Translations under genes and position numbers: made by a program
Notes under the pieces: generated by a model
Told to the model about the DNA's origin: nothing
The model's database searches: none
Seen by the model: only the letters and a program-made list of their open reading frames with translations
In this document: positions 1,227 through 2,988 of the stretch, piece after piece
Numbering within the stretch: the stretch's first letter is position 1
Layout of the letters: each line of letters opens with the position of its first letter
NCBI GenBank assembly: GCA_025060575.1
Contig: JANXBL010000003.1
Coordinates: forward strand, 1 to 35,816
From: Patescibacteria group bacterium
Lineage (GTDB): Bacteria > Patescibacteriota > Minisyncoccia > UBA6257 > HR35
Direction: 5' to 3'
Length of the DNA stretch: 35,816 nt

Positions 1227-1254
1227 TTGACAAAATTAAAAAGTTTGTTATAAA
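1227..1254 (+). promoter_or_regulatory. sigma70-type promoter upstream of the structured RNA
   Basis: TTGACA (1227-1232), 16-nt spacer, TATAAA (1249-1254), followed by GC-rich structured sequence. Confidence 0.7.
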
Positions 1255-1261
1255 ATTTATA

Positions 1262-1446
1262 TTAGTAACCAGCTGCCAAGGTCGGGGGTTTTTCTGGGCT
1301 TTCCACAATCAGCTGCCACTTGGCAAGCCTATCAGCCAATCCAATCTTTTGGATGGCTGTGCTGCTTGCCACCCTGAATCCACCCGCCACAACCCGACTT
1401 TTTAAGCCGGGAGGGCTTTGCTCTCCTTTCACCTCCCGGCTCTTTT
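1262..1446 (+). ncRNA. Candidate structured non-coding RNA of about 185 nt, family not recognised
   Basis: GC-rich island in AT-rich DNA with nested stems: GTCGGG(1281)/CCCGAC(1393); TTCTGGG(1292)/CCCTGAA(1372) with one mismatch; GGCAAGC(1322)/GCTTGCC(1364); CAGCC-A-ATCCAA(1333)/TTGGATGGCTG(1349). Strong promoter 5' and intrinsic terminator 3'. Confidence 0.65.
1404..1446 (+). terminator. Rho-independent terminator of the candidate ncRNA
   Basis: AGCCGGGAGG ... CCTCCCGGCT followed by CTTTTT. It overlaps the 3' end of the opposing gene. Confidence 0.75.
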
Positions 1447-2640
1447 TACTATATCTATTATTTTTTCGGCAATTTTTTCGTTAACATCAATGTGCGTTGG
1501 GAGATTTAAAACTTTGCCACCCAATTGTTCTGCCTTAGGACAGCTGTTTACTTGATAATCAAAATTTTTTGGATCAGAATAAGGGATTAAAACAAAGTTA
1601 TACCAGTCACCTAGATATATCTTTTCTTTTTTCATAAGTTTGACTATTTCTATTCTTTTTTCTGTAAGGAGGGGGAATCTTAAAAATATTGGTTGAGAAA
1701 AATTGTTAGTTTTAAAAGTCTCCAGTCCAGCCTCTTTATATAAGGAAGAAATTAATTGGCGATGTTGATTAAATCTTTCTAATTTCTTAAGCTGGTTAAC
1801 CAAAAGAGGCATAAGAACTCCAGGTAATTTTTTGAGATAATCGTAAGGTTTTTGGCCTAATTTTTCCTTTTCTGAGACCATTTCATTAAGCATCTTAAAC
1901 TTCCTAAGTAGTTTGACGGCGGATTTAGTCAAGAAATTATAATTTCTTTTAAGTCTAAATAAAACTACACCAGTTAATAAAATTTTTTTTATTTCCATGC
2001 CACTAGGCTCGTTGATTTTTTCATAAGCATCGTCTAGTTTTGAGATTAAAGATTGATTGTTAACTACTAATGCTCCACCGACAATACTTGATATTACCTT
2101 GTTTCTATTAAAACTTAGTAAGGCTACATCACCGAAATTGCCCAGATAGTTATTTTTAAATTTTGCTCCCAATGAGTGGGTTAAATTTTCGATCACCACT
2201 AAATTGTTTTCTTTCGCTATGGTCATAATTTCATCCATCTTAGCTGGCAGACCAAATGTGTTCTGAATAACTATTGCCTGCACTTCCTCTTTTATTTTTC
2301 TCTTAAGATCTTCAATGCTGATATTAAAACTTTCATCAATATCAACATAAATAGGCCTTAAACCGGCAAACTTAATAGCATTGGGAACGACTATACAAGA
2401 AAAGGCTTGAGTGATAACCGCTGATCTATTTTCTAGGCTAGAGAGAAGAAAGGTTAGAGCGCTTCTGGCTGATTTAAAAAAATAGACTTTAGCGTTAGGA
2501 AAATATCTTGCCAAAATTTCTCTGGCCTCTTTTTCTAGGGCTGAGGTGTCATATTTTTTACCTTGCAAAATACCCTTTATTATTTCATGGTCATCATTTT
2601 CAAAATTTGGCACTATATCAATGCTGATTATTTCTGGCAT
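1429..2640 (-). CDS. DegT/DnrJ/EryC1/StrS-type PLP-dependent aminotransferase-like protein
   Basis: Fold-type I motifs AITQAFSCIVVPNAIKFAGLRPIYVDID, VIENLTHSLGAKFKNNYLGNFGDVALLSFNRNK. Confidence 0.8.
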   Translation of the reverse strand: MPEIISIDIVPNFENDDHEIIKGILQGKKYDTSALEKEAREILARYFPNAKVYFFKSARSALTFLLSSLENRSAVITQAFSCIVVPNAIKFAGLRPIYVDIDESFNISIEDLKRKIKEEVQAIVIQNTFGLPAKMDEIMTIAKENNLVVIENLTHSLGAKFKNNYLGNFGDVALLSFNRNKVISSIVGGALVVNNQSLISKLDDAYEKINEPSGMEIKKILLTGVVLFRLKRNYNFLTKSAVKLLRKFKMLNEMVSEKEKLGQKPYDYLKKLPGVLMPLLVNQLKKLERFNQHRQLISSLYKEAGLETFKTNNFSQPIFLRFPLLTEKRIEIVKLMKKEKIYLGDWYNFVLIPYSDPKNFDYQVNSCPKAEQLGGKVLNLPTHIDVNEKIAEKIIDIVKRAGR

Positions 2641-2709
2641 CTATAACTAGATTTTAAGGTATTTGTTCTATAATTTACTTAGAACACTCTAGACGGAGGT
2701 GCTGAAAAA

Positions 2710-2988
2710 ATGGAATTAAACGTCCGAAATGTAAGAGTGAGGTACGAGATACTTTCAACCTCTTATCTTTCACCAGGGGAGAATATGACTAGAAATTCCT
2801 CTATCGTTGCGACAGACCTTCCTTCTGGTCAACTGGTGAAAATGAGCCTGGAGGCCACTATCACTATGAAAGTGATGGTAACCTCCTATGGCCATACCAA
2901 AGGCGAAGCGTTTAATAACGCCGCTAAAATGGTAGAAAAACTTATCCCCTCCTCTAGGAAAATCTTTCAACTTCGCTTCTCAGACTAA
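2710..2988 (+). CDS. Small conserved-looking hypothetical protein (92 aa)
   Basis: ATG preceded by a strong SD (CGGAGGTGCTGAAAAA) and an upstream TATAAT; followed by an intrinsic terminator; visibly higher GC than neighbours. Confidence 0.7.
   Translation: MELNVRNVRVRYEILSTSYLSPGENMTRNSSIVATDLPSGQLVKMSLEATITMKVMVTSYGHTKGEAFNNAAKMVEKLIPSSRKIFQLRFSD

Follow-up and report, generated by a model that had tools for sequence, protein, structure and literature searches.

We identified a probable stand-alone small RNA gene, with a promoter, a folded body of ~185 nt and an intrinsic terminator, in the analyzed window (35,816 nucleotides, contig C33 of the Patescibacteria genome G000, which has 0.63 Mb and 32% GC). 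As judged from sequence, the most informative part of this gene, which had been missed by the earlier note, is a conserved terminator hairpin whose loop displays an anti-Shine-Dalgarno (anti-SD) sequence; the 16S rRNA of the lineage has lost its own anti-SD. Our preferred reading, to which we give a probability of roughly 40%, is that of an sRNA acting in trans through base pairing between its terminator loop and SD-like boxes, with LhrC-like action but without membership in either the LhrC or the 6S family. Such an sRNA would probably regulate the small set of genes that still bear the matching start signal. The FemAB proteins closest to that encoded next to the RNA were found in MAGs of Parcubacteria and other Patescibacteria, several of them labelled KatS3mg or HR35, which we take to be of hot-spring origin. 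Features are listed in Table 1.

Table 1. Features of the RNA locus, 16S rRNA ends and SD-bearing cassettes (positions without a locus label are those of the window)
Feature	Position	Strand	Details
Sigma-70-type promoter	1227-1256	+	TTGACA 1227-1232; -10 TATAAA 1249-1254 or TAAAAT 1251-1256
Predicted ~185-nt RNA	1262-1446	+	Putative transcription start; 5' end TTAGTAACC
Rod of nested stems with apical hairpin	1278-1400	+	One-sided 22-nt bulge 1299-1320
Intrinsic terminator hairpin	1405-1441	+	10 bp, 17-nt loop; compensatory changes in G006 and G013
Terminator loop	1415-1431	+	GCUUUGCUCUCCUUUCA; invariant CUCCUUU core identical to part of canonical 16S 3' tail
Terminator U-tract	1442-1448	+	TCTTTTT, read from sequence
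Nearest SD cassette	2669-2988	+	TATAAT-N6-AGAACACTCTAGACGGAGG-ATG; 92-aa GC-rich ORF 2710-2988; Pfam/PHROG negative
SD cassettes	L060:277-1124; L066:8575-9208; L096:14835-15287; L113:2645-2884; L115:18419-18710		Leader pattern
SD cassettes	L116:1698-3095; L117:7200-7963		Leader pattern
SD cassettes	L090:9203-10916; L104:3602-4399	-	Leader pattern
16S rRNA ends	L090:11525-13047; L178-L189	- (L090)	Tail GGACCAAUUCUNUUU-like

Organization of the RNA gene

The near-consensus promoter described in the earlier note (TTGACA-16-TATAAA) is present, and the alternative -10 element, TAAAAT, at a spacing of 18 gives a match at 11 of 12 positions. A promoter match alone is weak evidence, as AT-rich DNA contains many of them; those of this kind numbered 51 genome-wide versus 31–37 in simulated genomes, i.e., mildly above chance. 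The predicted RNA start is close to, and in part fits, the motif (AGnAnnC) with which the cassette transcripts described below begin. Other elements claimed previously were also found. The GC-rich island reaches 0.58 over 100 nt versus a genome mean of 0.32 and is the highest intergenic one seen apart from tRNA and rRNA genes. The intrinsic terminator has a 10-bp hairpin followed by a U-tract, and was missed by a generic scan because the loop limit of that scan was 8 nt. On the + strand, no ORF of 80 aa or more begins for 1.26 kb, and the first one (at 2710) has its own promoter-like -10, in agreement with the claim that no + strand gene follows for more than 1.2 kb. A same-strand gene just downstream, as expected for a riboswitch or leader, was not found at the locus. 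With no close same-strand gene 3' of it in G000 and in the complete genome G006, which carries a copy of the hairpin, the RNA is therefore not a leader there. The description of an orphan structured ncRNA, with a promoter and terminator of its own and no obvious leader role, is supported.

The RNA occupies a cassette-like position, antisense, inside the DegT-FemAB gene pair, and DegT, encoded on the opposite strand (1429-2640), has its stop codon within the terminator hairpin of the RNA. We considered whether the - strand might be functional instead, as a folded element in the leader or between the genes of a DegT-FemAB mRNA. The element does lie between two co-directional genes, and the reverse-strand fold is almost equally improbable (z = -3.97). 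However, in each of the four homologs the hairpin is followed by a U-tract on the + strand, the copies in G006 and G013 lie away from FemAB, and DegT directly adjoins FemAB without the element in most relatives, so that we regard this explanation as very unlikely. We assigned the + strand from its promoter and U-tract and from the homologs.

The DegT-FemAB junction carries a promoter-driven GC- or C-rich RNA unit of opposite reading direction both in the window and in KatS3mg097 (G007); in the latter (L125 / L033:2780-2890), the unit has a TTGACA-17-TATATT promoter, a C-rich RNA (CACCCUCCCGUCCACCCCC) and a terminator. Upstream of FemAB in G003 (L127), two tandem intergenic mini-ORF cassettes of 16 and 27 codons, recognized by reading the sequence and in the same orientation, have AGGAGG leaders and terminators.

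Additional candidate units were observed in G000 and its relatives. One (L072:2515-2618, - strand) is a candidate non-coding unit with TTGACA-16-TAAAAT, an AGTATAAT start, UUUUCUCCUCC, and a hairpin followed by a T run. Another, in an intergenic gap (L103:1080-1200, - strand), is a candidate small RNA with TTGACA-18-TATACT, a sequence beginning GCACCUCUCGG, the terminator GGTAAGCTTCAAGCTTACC and a T-run. A GC-rich intergenic island (L096:5256-5385) contains an GCCCCCACC/GGTGGGGGC hairpin and a GATTGC/GCAATC closing helix and was negative in Rfam. In G011 (contig C18, L173), a tandem pair of near-identical GC-rich hairpins (GGCAGGGGAG...CTCCCCTGCC), each with a T-rich tail, is located upstream of an apparent tRNA.

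Fold of the RNA and known RNA families

The four nested stems and the large asymmetric bulge claimed for this RNA were borne out by folding. The minimum free energy (MFE) of 1262-1446 was -69.6 kcal/mol, compared to -53.0 (sd 4.0) for shuffled sequences (z = -4.2), and none of the 200 shuffles was as stable. The rod alone (1276-1402, z = -3.85) was also more stable than all shuffles. In both the MFE and centroid structures, predicted from a single sequence, the bulge is present on the 5' side only. No rod homolog was detected in G006, and no second copy in G000. On present sequences, the rod is unique to the G000 genome among those compared, all of other genera, and it is probably a genus-specific body that stabilises the RNA or binds a protein. 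The earlier note had suggested a search for homologs and covariation; the terminator hairpin has homologs and covaries in relatives (see below), and the rod has no homolog.

No Rfam family matched the locus, and only chance-level hits were seen at E ≤ 10. The RNA therefore does not belong to the RNase P RNA or tmRNA families; a whole-genome scan of G000 located both genes, together with rRNAs and tRNAs, elsewhere, consistent with the previously claimed lack of SRP, RNase P and tmRNA signatures. The scan of G000 detected neither SRP RNA nor 6S RNA. The SRP RNA model (RF00169) was below cut-off in all 17 family genomes, and a search limited to motifs found none of the partner proteins Ffh and FtsY in G000 or G006. 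It is thus unlikely that we are dealing with an unrecognized SRP RNA; SRP seems absent, and the pathway may be missing from the lineage.

The same scan bears on an RNA of the 6S type, whose bulged rod would mimic an open promoter and bind RNA polymerase. A length near 185 nt, a rod with a one-sided bulge, a strong promoter and the lack of any other 6S candidate in G000 favor this idea. However, the 6S model (RF00013) was below cut-off in all 17 family genomes and had no match at E ≤ 1 in G000, although this model was positive in only 6 of 14 control genomes. In addition, the bulge is predicted to be empty on its 3' side, whereas a 6S RNA has a central bubble open on both sides between two long stems. 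The rod is also absent from the complete genome G006, which has the conserved hairpin; conservation between genera is the norm for 6S RNAs. We consider a 6S-like function unlikely, and the analogy to 6S RNA drawn in the earlier note was not upheld.

Conservation of the terminator hairpin

A homolog search with a model of the terminator hairpin detected strong copies outside G000 only in G013 (two) and G006 (one); one weaker G013 hit (C6) has a loop that is CU-rich but contains no CUCC. The resulting four copies come from three genomes and two genera; two of these copies were found by the model built from the other two. They form a gapless alignment of 10 bp, 17 nt and 10 bp. All 40 stem-pair cells are paired and six of the ten pairs show two-sided compensatory changes. 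Stem covariation was 0.85 versus 0.29 in shuffled alignments (0/500 as high), and the score collapsed when the partner strand was slid. The CUCCUUU core, complementary to AAAGGAG, is invariant in all four 17-nt loops. A CU-rich motif is thus kept in an exposed loop while the stem covaries, which is the pattern expected for the class of CU-rich sRNAs that target SD sequences. The copy in G006 is an isolated intergenic unit with ACACCUCCUU directly 3' of its promoter; its RNA start, ACAGACACC, fits the AGnAnnCT motif less well than that of the RNA in the window.

Other searches yielded little. In BLASTN of the RNA against relatives and phages, the sole convincing match was the terminator in G013. 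Exact matches to a loop 13-mer in 149 genomes of the order, beyond those in G000 and G013, were not located in hairpin loops. A syntenic link between the G013 copy and G000 via a neighbouring permease was rejected: in G000 the orthologous permease gene is broken across the ends of two contigs, and it has no GC island upstream.

These data could also mean that only the terminator matters. Several transcripts would then have the same hairpin as a type of terminator or as a protein-binding element, and the rod would be a GC-rich passenger that is mobile or present by chance. Indeed, the hairpin alone has relatives, and the parts upstream of it are wholly different between copies. On the other hand, other long-loop terminators of G000 have different loops, and the stability of the rod, greater than that of all shuffles, and its own promoter speak against a passenger. 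This explanation appears improbable, though not negligible.

SD-bearing cassettes and loss of the anti-SD

None of the 12 family genomes in which the 16S 3' end could be read had an anti-SD there; their tails were GGACCAAUUCUNUUU-like rather than GGAUCACCUCCUUU, and the canonical 14-mer tail (GGATCACCTCCTTT) occurred in only 4 of 120 genomes of the order. SD motifs before 455 G000 genes were at background level. However, GGAGG at SD distance before G000 starts was in excess (32 versus 8–16 in permutations), and this excess was concentrated in ~20 dispersed, GC-rich (0.38–0.47), mostly ORFan genes, designated here as cassettes. Most of their leaders share the pattern TATAAT-N5-7-AGnAnnCT...AAGGAGG-ATG, which gave 12 hits in G000 versus 0 with reversed-pattern controls, and 51 versus 15 over the 17 genomes. 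There were few SD cassettes in G006, and by the strict leader pattern none in G006 or G013. The cassette nearest to the RNA (Table 1) is a possible target of it.

A phage or plasmid origin of the cassettes was not supported, with only scattered matches: one ORF is a 3D-domain peptidase with matches to phage families, another has a weak sigma-70 region 2 and a third a marginal tape-measure match, while the other tested ORFs had no match and one had no homolog in family or phage records. An apparent homology between the cassette at L104:3602 and G006:562771 had no BLASTP support although their leaders look alike. The occurrence of CUCC in other non-coding cassettes was not significant given their C-richness, by a rough estimate.

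The promoter and near-start motif common to the RNA and the SD cassettes raise the question of whether the locus is itself a degenerate or unusual coding cassette whose product would be a small peptide, as with the SD mini-genes nearby. A 54-codon ORF with a TTG start crosses the locus, and the two AGGAGG mini-ORF cassettes upstream of FemAB in G003 provide a parallel. However, no start at the locus is preceded by AGGAGG, the ORF continues through the terminator and U-tract, and the G013 copy stops 3 codons after its ATG. A coding function is therefore unlikely.

Proposed mode of action

In the reading that we prefer, the RNA would act in trans on mRNAs of the SD-bearing cassettes. The 17-nt terminator loop, perhaps together with the adjoining CACCUCC, would pair with the AAGGAGG box just 5' of the start codon, hide the start region and lower translation. 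With no anti-SD in the 16S rRNA of this lineage, the AGGAGG box could function chiefly as a recognition site for RNAs of this kind. AAAGGAG, which complements the loop core exactly, was found in 7 of 20 cassette leaders versus 3 of 574 other starts, a comparison that is partly circular given that cassettes were chosen by GGAGG. When all starts were ranked by duplex energy with the loop, 7 cassettes were in the top 20 versus a mean of 4.9 for composition-shuffled loops; 42 of 200 shuffled loops did as well, and no specific target was supported by this ranking. A CU-rich loop can arise by chance in any C-rich RNA. A far less probable idea is that of a detached anti-SD, in which a separate small RNA carrying the 16S tail would join the small ribosomal subunit and aid initiation on AGGAGG cassette mRNAs only.

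Comparison with known systems

This RNA family is new to Rfam, although its probable way of working, by analogy, is already known from low-GC Gram-positive bacteria. In LhrC, UCCC motifs in loops, including the terminator loop, bind the SD region of lapB, which is an experimental precedent (PMC4132741). Like LhrC, RsaE, SprD, RNAIII and FsrA, the present RNA has a CU-rich, SD-complementary single-stranded motif in its terminator loop (PMC4132741), and like CU-rich/UCCC sRNAs in general it appears to be an independent gene that has a promoter and a terminator of its own. However, it has no sequence relation to LhrC (RF00616; 21.2 bits, cut-off 110). It also differs from CU-rich/UCCC sRNAs in its large rod body and its occurrence in Parcubacteria, in a host whose 16S rRNA has no anti-SD and most of whose mRNAs have no SD. 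Length and a bulged rod are shared with 6S RNA, but the predicted one-sided bulge, the lack of a model match and the lack of conservation of the rod set it apart.

In a limited literature search, we found no sRNA described for these bacteria, and nothing on anti-SD loss in Parcubacteria among open-licence papers. The setting is unusual: the ribosome is devoid of an anti-SD, and a small RNA carries one. If the loop truly addresses AGGAGG, SD-like sequences unread by the ribosome would become private targets of sRNA control. Family-wide loss of the 16S anti-SD together with surviving SD cassettes allows a direct test of what an SD does in the absence of an anti-SD.

A survey of 128 anti-SD-less taxa, mainly Bacteroidetes, Tenericutes and Proteobacteria, reports that such organisms generally have no SDs (PMC6107228); a term search of its text found neither Parcubacteria nor small RNAs mentioned. 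Like the bacteria described there, the present lineage has a 16S rRNA without CCUCCU and has lost SD motifs genome-wide. Unlike them, it retains a discrete set of SD-bearing genes and an anti-SD-bearing RNA.
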